A DNA stretch of 64,000 nucleotides, taken from contig NZ_JACCBB010000001.1 of NCBI RefSeq assembly GCF_013409345.1, positions 744,001 through 808,000 of the forward strand, in the 5' to 3' direction. A model generated the notes under the pieces. It worked only from the letters and a program-made list of their open reading frames with translations, made no database searches and was not told the origin of the DNA. Position 1 is the first letter of the stretch, and the number at the start of each line of letters is the position of its first letter. Made by a program: the position numbers and the translations under genes. Origin of the DNA: Kineococcus aurantiacus (lineage in GTDB: Bacteria > Actinomycetota > Actinomycetes > Actinomycetales > Kineococcaceae). This document shows, in pieces, positions 32,005 to 64,000 of this stretch.

Positions 32005-32100
32005 CGCAGGCCGACCCGCTGGTGATCGAGCACAACACCCAGGCGCGAACCGCAGCCGACCGAGTACGTGTTGTGCTTGATCACCAGCGGGTCGGCTGCG
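32005..32100. repeat. Long hairpin between ppc and uppS containing the GTGATCRAGCAC repeat core
   Basis: Arm 32005-32038 (34 nt) pairs with 32068-32100 (33 nt): one bulged G and one G-to-A difference, loop 29 nt. The loop holds a third partial copy, CGCAGCCGACC at 32051-32061. The 11-bp core GTGATCRAGCAC-type sequence is shared with the array at 62445. It probably ends transcription from both convergent genes, but it is far longer than needed for that. Confidence 0.8.
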
Positions 32101-45622: not shown

Positions 45623-46557
45623 GGACCGTCCCGCTGGGGACCACCGGCCTGCAGGTGCCCAACGTCGTCCTCGGCCTCATGCGCATCGCCGAGATGGACG
45701 ACGAGGCCATCCGCACCCTCGTCGCCACCGGCCGCGAGGTCGGCATCACGATGGTCGACCACGCCGACGTCTACGGCGGTGCCCCGCACCGCTGCGAGGA
45801 GCGGTTCGCCCAGGCCGTCAAGCTCAGCTCCTCCGAGCGCGAGCAGACGGTCATCCAGACCAAGTGCGGCATCGTGCCCGGCGAGGACGGGGCGTACTTC
45901 GACTTCTCGTACGAGCACATCATCTCCTCGGTCACCGGGTCGCTGAGGGCGCTGGACACCGACTACCTCGACGTCCTGCTGCTGCACCGCCCCGACGCCC
46001 TCGTCGAACCCGAGGGCGTGGCGAAGGCGTTCGACGAGCTGCACGAGGCCGGCAAGGTCCGCGCGTTCGGCGTCTCCAACCACACCCCCGGCCAGCTGGA
46101 ACTGCTGCGCAAGCACGTGCGCCAGCCGCTCGTGGCCAACCAGCTGCAGCTGTCGATCACCCACGCGCCCCTCGTCGCGCAGGGCGTCGCGGCGAACATG
46201 CAGGGTCTGGACCAGTCGATCTCGCGCGACTACGGCACCCTGGACTACTGCCGGCTGCACGACATCACGGTGCAGGCGTGGTCGCCGTTCCAGGCCGGGT
46301 TCTTCGACGGGGTGTTCCTCGACAACCCGAAGTACCCCGAGCTGAACGCCGTGCTGGACCGCCTCGCCGCGCAGTACGACGTCCCGACGATCGCGATCGC
46401 GACCGCGTGGATCACCCGCCACCCGGCGAACATGCAGGTCGTCCTCGGCACCACGAACCCCGACCGGGTCCGCGCCGCGGCCCAGGGTTCGGACGTCCCG
46501 CTGACCAGGGCGGAGTGGTACGAGCTGTTCCGCGCCGCGGGCTACCAGGTGCCCTGA
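45619..46557 (+). CDS. Aldo/keto reductase 2 (YdhF-like)
   Basis: 312 aa from GTG 45619 with GAAGGAG upstream. Tetrad segments: MVDHADVYGG (Asp, Tyr), VIQTKCGIVPG (Lys), LLLHRPDALVEP (His). TPNPDR-type end reads LGTTNPDRVRAAAQG, and the overall pattern resembles the E. coli YdhF branch. Sequence identity with AKR 1 is low, so the two are not a recent duplication. Translationally coupled to AKR 1. Confidence 0.92.
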   Translation: MRTVPLGTTGLQVPNVVLGLMRIAEMDDEAIRTLVATGREVGITMVDHADVYGGAPHRCEERFAQAVKLSSSEREQTVIQTKCGIVPGEDGAYFDFSYEHIISSVTGSLRALDTDYLDVLLLHRPDALVEPEGVAKAFDELHEAGKVRAFGVSNHTPGQLELLRKHVRQPLVANQLQLSITHAPLVAQGVAANMQGLDQSISRDYGTLDYCRLHDITVQAWSPFQAGFFDGVFLDNPKYPELNAVLDRLAAQYDVPTIAIATAWITRHPANMQVVLGTTNPDRVRAAAQGSDVPLTRAEWYELFRAAGYQVP

Positions 46558-46590
46558 CCCGCGCCGCGCAGCGGTCCACGACCGTCAGGC

Positions 46591-46636
46591 CGGCGGGGGC
46601 GGAACCCGGGGTCGACCCCGGGTTCCGCCCCCGCCG
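46591..46636. terminator. Bidirectional terminator after the aldo/keto reductase and MBL genes
   Basis: 21-bp perfect stem, 46591-46611 with 46616-46636, loop TCGA, between convergent genes. Confidence 0.85.
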
Positions 46637-46694
46637 CCGTGGATCCCGGTGGTCGCGCGCAGCGACCCCGGGCGCTCCCCGCGCGACCCGCAGG

Positions 46695-47528
46695 TCACAC
46701 GCTCAGCGAACCCCCGACCGGTAGCTGCACCGCGCCGGCGACCCCCAGCCTCGACGCCTCCCGCACGAAGCGGCGGCCGGGTTCGACGAACCGGTCGCCC
46801 ATGGTCGCCCCCAGGGCGACGGGGTGCAGCGTCCCCCAGTGCACCGGCACCGAGACCCCCGGCCGGACCCGCGCCACGAGTTCGGCGGCCTGGCGCGGGT
46901 CGAGGTGGTGCGGGCCCAGGGTGTGGCCCCAGCCGCCGACGGGGACCAGCGCGACGTCGGGGGCGCGGCCGGCCGCGGCCAGCACCGCGTCGGACCCCGC
47001 GAACTCGCCGGTGTCCCCGATCGCCCACAGCAGCAGGTCGTCCAGGTCGCGGCCGGGGAACGCGCCCGGGACCCGCAGGAGGTGCTCGACGGCCTCGGCC
47101 CCGCGCGGGGCGCGGCTGAACCCGCTGCCCGTGCGGTGCCCGGCGTGGTGGGCGGGCAGGGCCGTGACCTGCACCGGGCCGCACGGCGTGGGCAGTTCCC
47201 GCGTCTGCCCGACGGCGACCTCCACGACGTGCGTGGCGGGCCGCCGCAACCGCCACCGCACCCAGTCCGAGGAACCCGGCGGGGTCACCAGAACCGTGGG
47301 CCGCATCCGCCGCAGCGACGGCAGGTCCAGGTGGTCGTGGTGCAGGTGCGAGACCAGCGCCAGGTCGCACCCGGCCCACGCGGCCGGGTCGGGCGTCGCG
47401 GGCCGGCGGCGCAGGTGCGCCAGCCCCGGCCGCAGCACGGGGTCGGTGACCACCCGCAGCGACCCTCCCGGCGTCCGCACGTCGACCGTCACGGTCGAGT
47501 GCCCCAGCCACCTCACGTCGACGCTCAC
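46695..47528 (-). CDS. MBL-fold metallo-hydrolase (UlaG-like)
   Basis: 277 aa. Metal motif SHLHHDHLDLPSL (HxHxDH), then a second histidine near LPAHHAGHR, IGDTGEFAG and VPVHWGTLHPV, the layout of UlaG / NAPE-PLD-like hydrolases. The N-terminal VRWLGHSTVTVD is typical. Substrate unknown. GTG 47528; it follows the phosphodiesterase gene by 22 bases and closes the era operon. Confidence 0.92.
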   Translation of the reverse strand: MSVDVRWLGHSTVTVDVRTPGGSLRVVTDPVLRPGLAHLRRRPATPDPAAWAGCDLALVSHLHHDHLDLPSLRRMRPTVLVTPPGSSDWVRWRLRRPATHVVEVAVGQTRELPTPCGPVQVTALPAHHAGHRTGSGFSRAPRGAEAVEHLLRVPGAFPGRDLDDLLLWAIGDTGEFAGSDAVLAAAGRAPDVALVPVGGWGHTLGPHHLDPRQAAELVARVRPGVSVPVHWGTLHPVALGATMGDRFVEPGRRFVREASRLGVAGAVQLPVGGSLSV

Positions 47529-60263: not shown

Positions 60264-61460
60264 TCAGCGGTGCTCGTCGGGCACGACCGTGCGGTCCACG
60301 GGTTCGGGGTCGGCGGGCTGCACGCTGAGGCTGGGGAAGTCCGCCAGCGGCCCGGCCTCCTCCCGGTCCCAGTCGTCGAACGTCAGGCCGCTCTGCAGGT
60401 AGACCGCGAGGAGCCGGGCGAGGGCGACGAGGCCGTCGACGTGGGCGCGCTCGTGCCCGTGGCTGGAGTCCAGGCCGAACCCGAGCAGCGCGTGCCGGGC
60501 CTCGATGCCGGCCTCCAGCGCGGGGGCGGCGTCGGAGCGGTAGTGCCGGTACACGTCGCGGACCGCGGGGATGCCGTGCTCGCGGGCCAGGGCGTGCAGG
60601 CGCCGGGACAGGTGGTAGTCGAAGGGCCCGGTCATGTCGAGCATCGCGACGCTGGCCAGTTCCTCACGGGAGTTCTGGCCCTCGGCGACCACGGCGTTGT
60701 CGACGGCGACCAGTTCGGCGACGTCGGGGGCCAGGCCGTGGGTGGCGCCGAACCCGACCTCCTCGCCGATGGTGACGAGGAACTGGGCGCTCACCGCGAG
60801 CGGCAGGTCGGCGTCGCGCAGCGCCTTCAGCGCCGCCAGGCACGCCGCGAGCCCGGCCTTGTCGTCGAGGTGCCGGGACTTGACGTAGCCGCGGCGGGTC
60901 AGCTGCGGGGCCGCGTCGAGGGCCACGTGGTCACCGACCTCGATGCCCAGGGCGCGCACGTCCCCGGCCGACTCGACCGGTTCGTCGATGCGGACCTCGA
61001 CGTACGGCCACCCGACGCCCTGGGTGTCGATCTCGTCGCCGAAGGTGTGCCCGCTGCTCTTCAGCGGCAGGACCGTCCCCGTGTACACGCGGTCGTGGTC
61101 GTCGGTGAAGATCGTCACGTGGGCGCCCTCGGAGAACCGGGCGCTGTGGCTGCCGACGGGCACGACCTCCAGCCGGCCCGACGGCTTCACGCGCTTGACC
61201 ATCAGCCCGATGGTGTCGGCGTGCACGACGACGGCGCGGTGCACCCCCTCGCTGCGGCCCCGCAGCGTCGCGCGCAGGATGCCGCGGCGCGTGAGGTCGA
61301 ACGGCAGCCCCAGGGCGGCGATGTGGTCGCCGACGGCCTGCATCACGGCGTCGGTGCGGCCCGAGGGGCTGGGGATGCGCAGCATCTCCATGAGCGTGCT
61401 CGTGAGGTACTCGACGTCGATGCTGACGTCGACGGGCTGGGGGGTGTCGGCGGTGCTCAT
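60264..61460 (-). CDS. M42-family peptidase of the NAGGN osmolyte system type
   Basis: 398 aa zinc peptidase-fold enzyme: H80 and D82 in VVVHADTIGLMV, bridging Asp in SRHLDDKAGLAA, catalytic Glu pair in TIGEEVGFG, and DSSHGHERAH near the end. The start DVEYLTSTLMEMLRIPSPSGRTD matches the M42 subfamily I know from N-acetylglutaminylglutamine amide (NAGGN) loci, where it accompanies asnO and ngg. A C-terminal part of Ngg is encoded at 63362, supporting this. The substrate is unproven. ATG 61460. Confidence 0.85.
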   Translation of the reverse strand: MSTADTPQPVDVSIDVEYLTSTLMEMLRIPSPSGRTDAVMQAVGDHIAALGLPFDLTRRGILRATLRGRSEGVHRAVVVHADTIGLMVKRVKPSGRLEVVPVGSHSARFSEGAHVTIFTDDHDRVYTGTVLPLKSSGHTFGDEIDTQGVGWPYVEVRIDEPVESAGDVRALGIEVGDHVALDAAPQLTRRGYVKSRHLDDKAGLAACLAALKALRDADLPLAVSAQFLVTIGEEVGFGATHGLAPDVAELVAVDNAVVAEGQNSREELASVAMLDMTGPFDYHLSRRLHALAREHGIPAVRDVYRHYRSDAAPALEAGIEARHALLGFGLDSSHGHERAHVDGLVALARLLAVYLQSGLTFDDWDREEAGPLADFPSLSVQPADPEPVDRTVVPDEHR

Positions 61461-61512
61461 CGCGGTCGATGCTGCCAGGCGGGGCGGGCGGACGGCGCGG
61501 GAGGATGCCCCG

Positions 61513-62436
61513 GTGGACCTCGCTGACGTGCTCGACGACCTCTACGGCTCCGCGCCCACGGGGTTCACCGCCGCGCGCGACGCCTTCGCCCGGCAGGCCC
61601 GCGCCGAGGGCGACCGCGAGCTCGCCGGCCGCATCGGCGCGCTGCGCAGACCGCTGGTCCCCGCGTGGGCCGTGAACCTGCTGGTGCGCGAGCGCGGGGA
61701 GGACGTCGAGCGGCTGCTGGAGCTGGGCGCGGCCATGCGGGAGGCGACGGCCTCGCTGGCCGGCGCGGAGCTGCGGGAGCTGCGGGTGCGGCAGCACGAG
61801 GTCCTGGAGGCCGTGCGGGTGCAGGTGGTGCGGCTGGCCCGCGAGGCGGGGGTGCGGCTGTCCCCGGGGGCCGGGGAGCGGGTCGTCGCCACGCTGCGGG
61901 CCGCGATGGCCGACGCGGCCGCCGCGGACGCCGTGCGCTCGGGGCTGCTGGTGCGGCCCCTGGAGCCCGCGGGCTTCGGGGAGGTCGACCTGGCGGGGGC
62001 GACCGCGTCGGACGCCGCCCCGCCCCGGCCGCCCGCCGCGTCCCCCCGGCGCCCCGCGGTCCCCCGCGACGAGCTGAGCGCCCGCCGGGAGGTGAGGGCG
62101 GCCCGCGACGCCGAGCGGCAGCGGGTCGAGACCGAGCGCCGCGAACGGGAGCGGGCCGAGCTGCACGAGGCCGTCCGCGCGGCGCGCACCGAGCTCGACG
62201 ACGCCCGCGGGGAGTCGTCCTCGGCGGCCGCGGAGCTGTCCTCGGCGCGCCGGCGCTACGACGACCTGGTGCGCCGCCGCGACGACCTGCAGGCGCGGCT
62301 CGACGCCGTCGCCGCCCAGCTCGCCCCGGCCGCGGGCGCGCTGCGCGCGGCCGAGCGGGCCGCCCACGCGGCGCAGGAGCGGGTCGCGGCCGCCGAGCGG
62401 GAGCTGGAGCGCCTGCGCGCCCGCCTCCCCGACTGA
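61513..62436 (+). CDS. Coiled-coil protein of unknown function
   Basis: 307 aa from GTG 61513, 6 nt behind GAGGAT. Residues 1-165 are helical and contain DVLDDLYGSAPTGFTAARDA and VPAWAVNLLVRERGEDVERLL, a pattern I recall from hypothetical proteins widespread in Actinobacteria; a Pro-rich linker (about 175-190) leads to a long charged coiled coil (about 195-307, Arg/Glu heptads such as RREVRAARDAERQRVETERR). No membrane segment or enzyme motif. Divergent from the M42 gene. Function not assigned. Confidence 0.72.
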   Translation: MDLADVLDDLYGSAPTGFTAARDAFARQARAEGDRELAGRIGALRRPLVPAWAVNLLVRERGEDVERLLELGAAMREATASLAGAELRELRVRQHEVLEAVRVQVVRLAREAGVRLSPGAGERVVATLRAAMADAAAADAVRSGLLVRPLEPAGFGEVDLAGATASDAAPPRPPAASPRRPAVPRDELSARREVRAARDAERQRVETERRERERAELHEAVRAARTELDDARGESSSAAAELSSARRRYDDLVRRRDDLQARLDAVAAQLAPAAGALRAAERAAHAAQERVAAAERELERLRARLPD

Positions 62437-62444
62437 CCGCGGGG

Positions 62445-62583
62445 AGTGCTCGATCAGGGAAGTGCTCGATCAGGAGAGTGCTTGATCACGACAGTGCTTG
62501 ATCACCGCCGGGGGGGTGGGGCGCACCACCACCTCGCCGTGATCAAGCACTTCGGTGATCAAGCACTTCGGTGATCAAGCACT
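62445..62583. repeat. Inverted array of a 16-bp-periodic repeat (4 forward, 3 reverse units)
   Basis: Forward AGTGCTYGATCA at 62445, 62461, 62477 and 62493 (exactly 16 bp apart; the first two have C, the last two T). Reverse TGATCAAGCACT at 62540, 62556 and 62572 (also exactly 16 bp apart). Central spacer 62505-62539. The two halves can fold into one long stem. It fills the gap between convergent genes. The core recurs in the ppc/uppS hairpin. Confidence 0.9.
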
Positions 62584-62609
62584 TTGTGGTCGGGCGCAGC
62601 GGGAGCGGG

Positions 62610-63353
62610 TCAGCGCTGGTCGCGGGGGCAGACGTAGGCGGTGCGGCCGGCGACGGTGCGGGTCTGCACCGTCGTCCCGCAGCGGCGGCACGTGTCGCGC
62701 TTGTACACCCAGCGCTCGTCGGGGGCGGTGGGGTCGGACACGACCTGCCCGGCGTCGACGCCCAGGCGCAGGAGCTCCACCGCCAGGTCCCACAGCAACC
62801 CGGCCTCCTCCTCGCCGACGCGGCGGGCCGGGTCGAGGCCGGCCAGGAACAGCAGCTCGGCGCGCCAGGCGTTGCCGATGCCCGCCCACACCGACTGGTC
62901 CAGCAGCGCGGCGCCCACCGCGGTCCCGGCGGCCGCCAGCCGCCGGGCGGCGTCCTCGCGGCCGGCCTCCCCCACCCGCAGCGGGTCCGGCCCCAGGGAG
63001 GCCAGCAGTGCGTCGCGGGCCTGCGGCACCAGCGCCTCGCACCGGCTGGGGGCGATGAGGGAGAACGCCTCCCGCTCCCCCGCCAGCCGCATCCGCGTCC
63101 CGCCGCGCGGGGGCAGCGCCAGGTCGGCGGTGCGCAGGTAGATCCCCTTCAGGCCCAGGTGGACGTGCACGTCGGGGGCCTCGTCGAAGGAGTACAGCAG
63201 GTGCTTGCCGTACGCCTGGACGTCGTCGAGGCGGTGGCCGTCGAACGGTGCCGCGTCGAACCTGCCCTGCGGGCTGGACACCGCCAGGACCTGACCGGCC
63301 AGCGCCTCGCGCTGGTCGCGGGCGTGGCGGTGCAGGCTGTGCGCCTCGGGCAC
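62610..63353 (-). CDS. Fpg/Nei-family DNA glycosylase
   Basis: 247 aa from GTG 63353. N-terminal catalytic P2-E3 (MPEAHSLHR; the usual Gly4 is Ala), Lys in QAYGKHLLYSF (K50), H2TH motif with AALLDQSVWAGIGNAWRAELLFLAG, and a C-terminal zinc finger C222-x2-C225-x16-C242-x2-D245: the fourth Cys is Asp. Closest to the actinobacterial Nei2 branch; removes oxidised pyrimidines and cuts the strand. It follows the ngg stop by 8 bases and is probably cotranscribed with it. Confidence 0.9.
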   Translation of the reverse strand: MPEAHSLHRHARDQREALAGQVLAVSSPQGRFDAAPFDGHRLDDVQAYGKHLLYSFDEAPDVHVHLGLKGIYLRTADLALPPRGGTRMRLAGEREAFSLIAPSRCEALVPQARDALLASLGPDPLRVGEAGREDAARRLAAAGTAVGAALLDQSVWAGIGNAWRAELLFLAGLDPARRVGEEEAGLLWDLAVELLRLGVDAGQVVSDPTAPDERWVYKRDTCRRCGTTVQTRTVAGRTAYVCPRDQR

Positions 63354-63361
63354 GACGGTCC

Positions 63362-64000
63362 CTAGTCCTGGGACCGGGTCTCGGGGAACAGCAGGTCCAG
63401 GAACCGCTGGGCCGTCGGCCGCGGCGAGTGGTTGGCCAGCCCGGGCCGCTCGTTGGCCTCGATGACCACGTGCTCGGGGCCGGACACGTCGGGGACGAGG
63501 AAGTCCAGGCCCGTCACGGGGATCCCGATGGCGCGGCTGGCGGCCACGGCCGCGTCGACGAGGTCGGGGTGCAGGTCGTCGGTGACGTCGTCGATCGTGC
63601 CGCCCGTGTGCAGGTTCGCGGTGCGCCGCACCTCCAGGCGCTGCCCGCGGGGCAGGACGTCGTCGAGGCTGAAACCGGCGTCGGCGACGACGTGCTCGGT
63701 GGTGGCGTCCAGCGGGATGCTGGACTCCCCGCCCGTCGCGGCCTCCCGGCGGCGGCTGTGCCGGGTGATGAGGGTGCGGACGTCGTCGGTGCCGGTGCCG
63801 ATCACGGCGGCCGGCCGGCGGACCGCGGCCGCGACGACCTCGTGGTCGATGACCACGACGCGCAGGTCCTGCCCGGCGACGAGTTCCTCGACGAGGACGT
63901 CGGGGCAGTGCGCGGCGGCCTCGGCGACCGCGGCCCGCAGCTCCTGCCCGCCCCGGACGCCGACCGTGATGCCCTTGCCCTGCTCCCCCCGCGCGGGTTT
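63362..64000 (-). CDS. ngg: N-acetylglutaminylglutamine synthetase (Ngg), C-terminal ATP-grasp part, cut by window edge
   Basis: The last 212 codons of a minus-strand gene running off the right edge. They are an ATP-grasp domain: KPARGEQGKGITVGV, VLVEELVAGQDLRVVVIDHE, AAAVRRPAAVIGTG, RTANLHTGGTIDDVTDDLHP, GLDFLV and the end IEANERPGLANHSPRPTAQR. This order is that of cyanophycin-synthetase-like Ngg, in which a GNAT domain (outside the window) precedes the ATP-grasp. It builds the osmoprotectant NAGGN together with AsnO; the M42 gene at 60264 is the third usual member. Confidence is limited because only the tail is visible. Confidence 0.72.
   Translation of the reverse strand, partial: KPARGEQGKGITVGVRGGQELRAAVAEAAAHCPDVLVEELVAGQDLRVVVIDHEVVAAAVRRPAAVIGTGTDDVRTLITRHSRRREAATGGESSIPLDATTEHVVADAGFSLDDVLPRGQRLEVRRTANLHTGGTIDDVTDDLHPDLVDAAVAASRAIGIPVTGLDFLVPDVSGPEHVVIEANERPGLANHSPRPTAQRFLDLLFPETRSQD

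Follow-up and report, generated by a model that had tools for sequence, protein, structure and literature searches.

REP sequences of the GTAG and CGTC classes lie between convergent genes and at gene 3'-ends, and the CGTC class is described as having no dedicated transposase (PMC3733652, in the part of the paper that was available). Stem-loop repeat families have been surveyed in 40 bacterial genomes, and the available text of that survey does not contain the word Kineococcus (PMC2267715). No report of the arrays described here appears in the accessible parts of the literature that joins Kineococcus with palindromic, intergenic or inverted repeats. To our knowledge, how convergent genes are separated in very GC-rich actinobacteria is poorly understood, and classic U-tailed terminators are scarce there.

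The window analyzed here is a stretch of 64,000 nucleotides (G000:C1:744001-808000) from a genome with a 4.85-Mb contig and a 175-kb contig. It contains, between two convergent genes, an array of short units whose geometry agrees with the original prediction: four units face three inverted ones with an exact 16-bp period on either side of a 35-bp centre (Table 1). The stop codon of the left gene lies 9 bp ahead of the first GTGCTYGATCA, and the Y of the four 5'-arm units reads C, C, T and T in order. Allowing one mismatch, GTGCTYGATCA was found 11 times in the window, compared to a mean of 1.34 and a maximum of 4 in dinucleotide-shuffled sequence (0 of 100 shuffles reached 11). RNA from either strand of the array is predicted to fold far better than dinucleotide shuffles (z of -10.2 and -10.3). 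A terminator scan of 61400-63500 found none, and Rfam 15 at gathering score reported only four tRNAs in the whole window and no RNA family at the array. The best reading is that this array is one of more than 50 members of a species-private, REP-like extragenic repeat family, whose observed copy number, architecture, placement, foldability, core and linker conservation and absence from the searched congeners are given below.

Table 1. Positions in the window of the array, its flanking genes and a second, related element.
Feature	Position	Strand	Details
Left convergent gene, 307 aa, coiled-coil-like	61513..62436	+	Pfam matches solely below curated cut-offs
5' arm, four 12-bp units AGTGCTYGATCA, 16-bp period	62445..62504	+	Units 62445-62456, 62461-62472, 62477-62488, 62493-62504
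G/C-rich centre, 35 bp	62505..62539	.	Unlike the centres of other inward arrays
3' arm, three inverted units TGATCAAGCACT, 16-bp period	62540..62583	-	Units 62540-62551, 62556-62567, 62572-62583
Right convergent gene, formamidopyrimidine-DNA glycosylase family	62610..63353	-	H2TH, Fapy_DNA_glyco and zf-FPG_IleRS domains
Second related outward element, not a 16-bp array, between convergent genes	32005..32099 (limits approximate)	.	Long hairpin; stem holds TGATCGAGCAC (32023-32033) and GTGCTTGATCA (32073-32083)

Across the whole genome, GTGCTYGATCA occurs in 192 exact copies and the reversed-word control in 0. As a null the reversed word is lenient: three other actinobacterial genomes hold 13, 25 and 23 units with control counts of 0 to 1, so part of the 192 may be background; the tandem pairs are not. 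Pairs at 16-bp spacing numbered 107 with up to one mismatch (pattern with N) and 131 with up to three mismatches in a slightly stricter pattern (R before the second unit), and the control gave 0 in both searches. The 52 loci that were examined account for 185 of the 192 exact units, the seven others lying outside these loci, and hold 218 units at up to two mismatches. They form 56 clusters, of which 19 are inward (> <), 21 outward (< >), 14 direct-only, 1 mixed and 1 single; both orientations are present in 41. The unit consensus is GTGCTYGATCAC (Y being C in 88 units and T in 130), joined to a linker with the consensus S-G-N-R, and the spacing of same-strand neighbours is 16 bp in 115/120 cases. 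Outward arrays have a start-to-start step across the centre of 23 bp in 14/22 cases, the step in inward arrays ranges from 14 to 58, and the number of units varies between arrays. The outward centre (TGTCCACAA-like) resembles the DnaA-box consensus, but it differs between loci. A second short palindrome, GGAGCCGGCGCCCAGCGCCGGAG, recurs within the centres of two outward arrays (L048 and L055).

To place the arrays relative to genes, we used gene calls from a purpose-written codon-usage caller. Counted by a rule slightly different from that of the architecture count, 56 clusters divide into 22 in convergent gaps, 24 in tandem gaps, 6 in divergent gaps and 4 inside genes, whereas the 101 gaps without an array in these loci (60 bp or longer) comprise 8 convergent, 50 tandem and 43 divergent. 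Convergent gaps are therefore favoured (22/52 clusters versus 8/101 array-free gaps; Fisher p = 1.7e-6) and divergent gaps disfavoured (6/52 versus 43/101; p = 9e-5). Because array-free convergent gaps are short (median 64 bp), the 60-bp limit costs convergent gaps the most. With gaps of 30-600 bp for both classes, taken from the window, 50 loci and four further stretches, array gaps were 23 convergent, 24 tandem and 7 divergent and array-free gaps 20, 103 and 63, respectively; the convergent share (23/54 versus 20/186) gives the same picture. In tandem gaps the array lies nearer the upstream stop codon than the downstream start codon in 20/24 cases, and the modules are placed within a few tens of bp past stop codons. 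Avoidance of promoters could by itself produce this 3'-end bias.

Ordinary hairpins occupy similar positions. Strong hairpins were found in 12/20 convergent, 23/103 tandem and 5/63 divergent array-free gaps, and in 20/23, 21/24 and 4/7 of the corresponding array gaps. Many array-free convergent gaps thus have a strong hairpin, and the arrays therefore share a niche that is often filled by a long one. Very long locus-specific hairpins, with stem scores far above those of shuffled sequence, also lie between convergent genes at 2476-2570 and 46550-46705 of the window; hairpins of this kind are common at the gene ends of this genome. In the second element of Table 1 the stem is locus-specific around the array word, and the orthologous gap of the congener G005 has another long hairpin.

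The clusters are also unevenly spread along the chromosome. With dnaA at 2.393 Mb and the contig assumed to be circular, 44/54 clusters fall in the half around dnaA (p = 3e-6), a count that leaves out the single unit at L043 and the pair at L054:2138. By successive 0.4-Mb steps away from dnaA the numbers are 9, 21, 14, 7, 2 and 1, so that the peak lies 0.4-0.8 Mb off and not at the origin.

The original prediction named a multi-stem hairpin as one possible nature of the array, and the strong predicted folding of both strands at this locus agrees with that; the family as a whole agrees only in part. Against 30 mononucleotide shuffles each, which is a lenient control, the mean folding z was -8.3 for outward and -7.6 for inward arrays but -0.7 for direct-only ones. 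As a group, then, the 14 direct-only clusters fold no better than shuffled sequence, and most of them still lie at gene ends. Among nine unambiguous direct-only gaps, a further strong hairpin is present in four (L031, L038, L060 and L077) and absent from five (L069, L073, L074 and L075 twice). Linkers that face each other in the stems were not complementary: 50/108 positions could pair (46%, compared to 53% when shuffled), and 5/27 pairs matched fully. Since direct-only arrays stay unfolded and facing linkers do not complement one another, the hairpin appears to be part of the story only. No U-tract follows the arrays; the longest T-run was 0-1 on 105/112 array sides.

Conservation of the unit points in another direction. 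Linkers are 87% alike within an arm and 58% alike between loci, which suggests that an arm lengthens when a 16-mer is duplicated in place. Among 45 interior units compared between loci, the core (Y left out) differs at 3.6% per base and the linker at 46.7%; adjacent units of one arm differ at 3.2% of core positions (16/495) versus 13.3% of linker positions (24/180; p = 7e-6), and the core, again without Y, matches fully in 40/45 interior units. Units were found through their core, which favours core conservation in these figures, and the use of interior units lessens this bias without removing it. The Y itself differs between adjacent units in 14/45 cases. In facing units the Y positions pair in 48/69 cases (p = 0.0014 versus shuffling across loci), but this apparent covariation is not convincing, as the effect is no stronger for facing pairs than for pairs within a locus that do not face each other (p = 0.21). 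With a constant core, drifting linkers and facing linkers that pair like shuffled ones, recognition of the sequence, and not pairing alone, seems to be what is kept. We read this as a constraint that would act on the 12-mer itself.

The original prediction considered that the array might be a local accident, absent from close relatives and without other tandem copies in its own genome. The tandem pair at up to one mismatch was indeed absent from 10 congeners, as well as from 48 further genomes, but dozens of arrays lie elsewhere in the genome, so the array is no local accident; the family is real, genome-wide and absent from the searched congeners. Among the named genomes of genome_contigs, a set from which the source genome of the window and very close ones may be missing, the records with exact matches were three: a Pseudonocardia MAG with 3 units, Gordonia desulfuricans with 2 and Modestobacter sp. 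DSM 44400 with 5 in direct orientation, the 16-bp period in all three being imposed by the search pattern. The Gordonia array is flanked by convergent genes and begins at a stop codon.

Some congeners have hairpin repeats of their own. When six congeners were screened de novo for frequent words (400 kb of G005 and 200 kb each of G001, G006, G007, G008 and G010), long-hairpin families emerged in two of them, two families in G005 and one in G007. The 200 kb sampled from each of G001, G006, G008 and G010 held no dispersed hairpin family, and a rarer one could escape stretches of this size. Across the 11 genus genomes, CGAGGTGTGCCT occurs 43 times in G005 and at most 5 times in any other; GGCGGAAAGTGTGTTTTCC, at up to one mismatch, occurs 52 times in G007 and 0 times in the other 10; and GGGGAGKCAACGYG occurs 39 times in G005, 5 times in G007 and 0 times in the other nine. 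Two of these families are thus private to one species and the third is nearly so. Their contexts, 5 clusters each with 0, 1 and 2 divergent, are too few to prove a 3' bias alone. At the gene junction orthologous to that of the window array, G005 has three arms of its own hairpin palindrome and G008 and G007 have short gaps only; other orthologous gaps hold a different hairpin or none. Because the searched sister species lack the arrays and some have other repeats, the arrays look like fast-changing gene-end signals. Arm spacing in the congener families (L118, L120, L125 and L126 in G005; L145, L148 and L152 in G007) is nearly constant, mostly 38-40 bp, and the G005-A and G007 units are distantly alike by eye, each arm being itself a small palindrome.

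A mobile repeat was another of the originally predicted possibilities. The family is indeed dispersed through the genome, but a search for Y1 transposases found no mobiliser: PF01797 at E 0.001 gave 0/11 genus genomes, with the positive control found in 5/14, including E. coli. On this result a RAYT-driven REP was rejected. GTAG or CTAC lay within 8 bp of the outer units in 0/56 clusters, and GTAG, CTAC or CTAG anywhere within 30 bp in 6/56; CGTC or GACG lay within 8 bp in 6/56. A phage origin was rejected, as the tandem pattern occurs in 0 stretches of viral_contigs. At L075 (3000-3984), a gene with weak similarity to the DUF559/MTES_1575 nuclease lies between <<< and >>>> arrays; it could be a cassette that occupies the middle of an outward element. 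The second DUF559 match of this genome is at L197, a 3.2-kb locus that contains just two 2-mismatch strings and not one array unit, and the idea of this gene as mobiliser is therefore weak. As for insertion of units into the loops of older locus-specific hairpins, the outer flanks of outward arrays pair just slightly better with one another than with flanks from other loci (p = 0.084), and self-complementarity is not clear in the inward centres either (median p = 0.27).

One possibility, less likely than the boundary reading given below, is a sequence-specific protein, perhaps a dimer on GTG-N6-CAC, that would sit side by side on units 16 bp apart (about one and a half turns) and either form a roadblock for RNA polymerase or mark the half of the chromosome around the origin. 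The conservation of the core relative to the freer linkers adds weight to such a protein-binding array, which the original prediction had also named, as do the nearly equal numbers of inward and outward arrays (19 and 21) that double-stranded recognition predicts, the lack of a sense-strand preference among direct-only arrays in tandem gaps (3/6 each way), the presence of non-folding arrays at gene ends and the origin-half bias. The binder is putative, however, and the same marks would be expected if a copying machinery recognized the core; in addition, a simple binding array does not need the two orientations seen in 41/56 clusters, and the clusters peak away from the origin itself. We hold a more doubtful view of the arrays as a purely selfish, REP- or MITE-like repeat with no role for the host, tolerated at gene ends since insertions elsewhere were lost. 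Absence of the tandem pair from 10 congeners, the different families of G005 and G007, orthologous gaps with different hairpins or none, and the variable unit number would all fit, but no Y1 transposase was found in the 11 genus genomes (the search covered the Y1 family only), the REP tags are absent or rare beside the clusters, and cores within an arm diverge about four times slower than linkers, which is unexpected for dead copies.

Two further explanations carry little weight. A word resembling a DNA-uptake sequence, taken over into terminators in the manner of Neisseria and Pasteurellaceae, would explain the conserved 12-mer with its freer flanks, the inverted pairs at gene ends, the different words of congeners and the origin-half bias; it is very unlikely, as 192 copies compare to generally 1,000 or more in the available part of the description of such words (PMC1852404), only 4/56 clusters were called inside genes, and the copies are tandem and not single. 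A trap for translation is less credible again. T-type units hold TGATCA and so read TGA on either strand, C-type units on one strand alone; as each 16-bp step also changes the reading frame, several units would place stop codons in many frames of a genome that is poor in stops. All six frames are stopped in 19/56 clusters, compared to 1/1120 length-matched draws from array-free gaps, and a gene's stop codon overlaps a unit 16 times in 15 loci (by our own gene caller). This would follow trivially from any repeated TGATCA, though, and 37/56 clusters do not cover six frames, the C-type units (88/218) lack TGA on one strand, and the equally conserved GTGC part and the inverted form are left unexplained.

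We therefore favour the reading of the arrays as REP-like, RAYT-less, species-private, bidirectional 3'-end boundary elements, to which we give about an even chance; in terms of function, a gene-end boundary is their most likely role. The module would be the 12-bp duplex GTGCTYGATCAC, multiplied at 16 bp through what was probably local tandem duplication. With both orientations usually present around a centre, the transcript, and in principle the DNA, could form a long interrupted stem. At their most characteristic site, between convergent genes, or else past the upstream gene of a tandem pair, the arrays may end or block transcription leaving either gene, with the hairpin as the means in about three quarters of them (the 41/56 with both orientations). 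As the sequence of the 12-mer is itself kept, something presumably recognizes the double-stranded word, and this could be a putative protein that binds DNA or the apparatus by which the repeat is copied. The original interpretation is thus partly supported overall. A wider proposal, which we consider rather unlikely, is that the genus invents a private gene-end code species by species: a double-stranded 12-bp word, stacked at 16 bp in either direction behind genes of the origin half, would be read by a putative protein, roadblock polymerase or insulate genes, spread without a known transposase and give way to another word in the next species.

Gene-end repeats that differ wholesale between species, without Y1 transposases, are a natural experiment in how such elements arise, multiply and persist. 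This genome also supplies dozens of natural array copies, varied in unit number and orientation, for a read-through assay.

Several known systems share features with the arrays. Like REP, BIME and REPIN sequences of the RAYT-associated GTAG type, as far as the available part of their description goes (PMC3733652), the arrays are short, present in many copies, extragenic, located between convergent genes or just past stop codons, arranged head-to-head and tail-to-tail and species-specific. Unlike them, the family lacks the GTAG tag (0/56 clusters within 8 bp) and a Y1 transposase (11 genomes), and its 12-mer, hardly palindromic alone, is arranged in tandem arms with an exact 16-bp period. CGTC-type REPs, in the same source, are likewise palindromic gene-end repeats without a transposase of their own, but a CGTC or GACG tag stands beside 6/56 of our clusters only, and these REPs are rarely clustered according to its table, whereas tandem arms are the rule here. 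The arrays also resemble the uptake signal terminators of Neisseria and Pasteurellaceae, which, in the accessible text of PMC1852404, combine a conserved short word, inverted pairs, gene-end hairpins and group-specific words. The array word, in contrast, has at least fivefold fewer copies, few of them in genes, is tandem and has no U-tail.

Intrinsic (Rho-independent) terminators likewise place a strong hairpin straight after stop codons that can be used from both sides of a convergent pair. Such a hairpin is found in the 41/56 clusters with both orientations and not in the 14 direct-only clusters, which do not fold, and the arrays have no U-tract. CRISPR arrays have unique spacers of at least 20 nt, unlike the 4-nt linkers here that are 87% alike within an arm, and the original view that the array is not a CRISPR holds. 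With the stem-loop repeat families of bacterial genomes the arrays share an intergenic location and a common stem-loop, by the available part of that survey (PMC2267715). In their behaviour the arrays are REP-like, but they have neither the tag and transposase known from the described REP classes nor the U-tract of classic intrinsic terminators.
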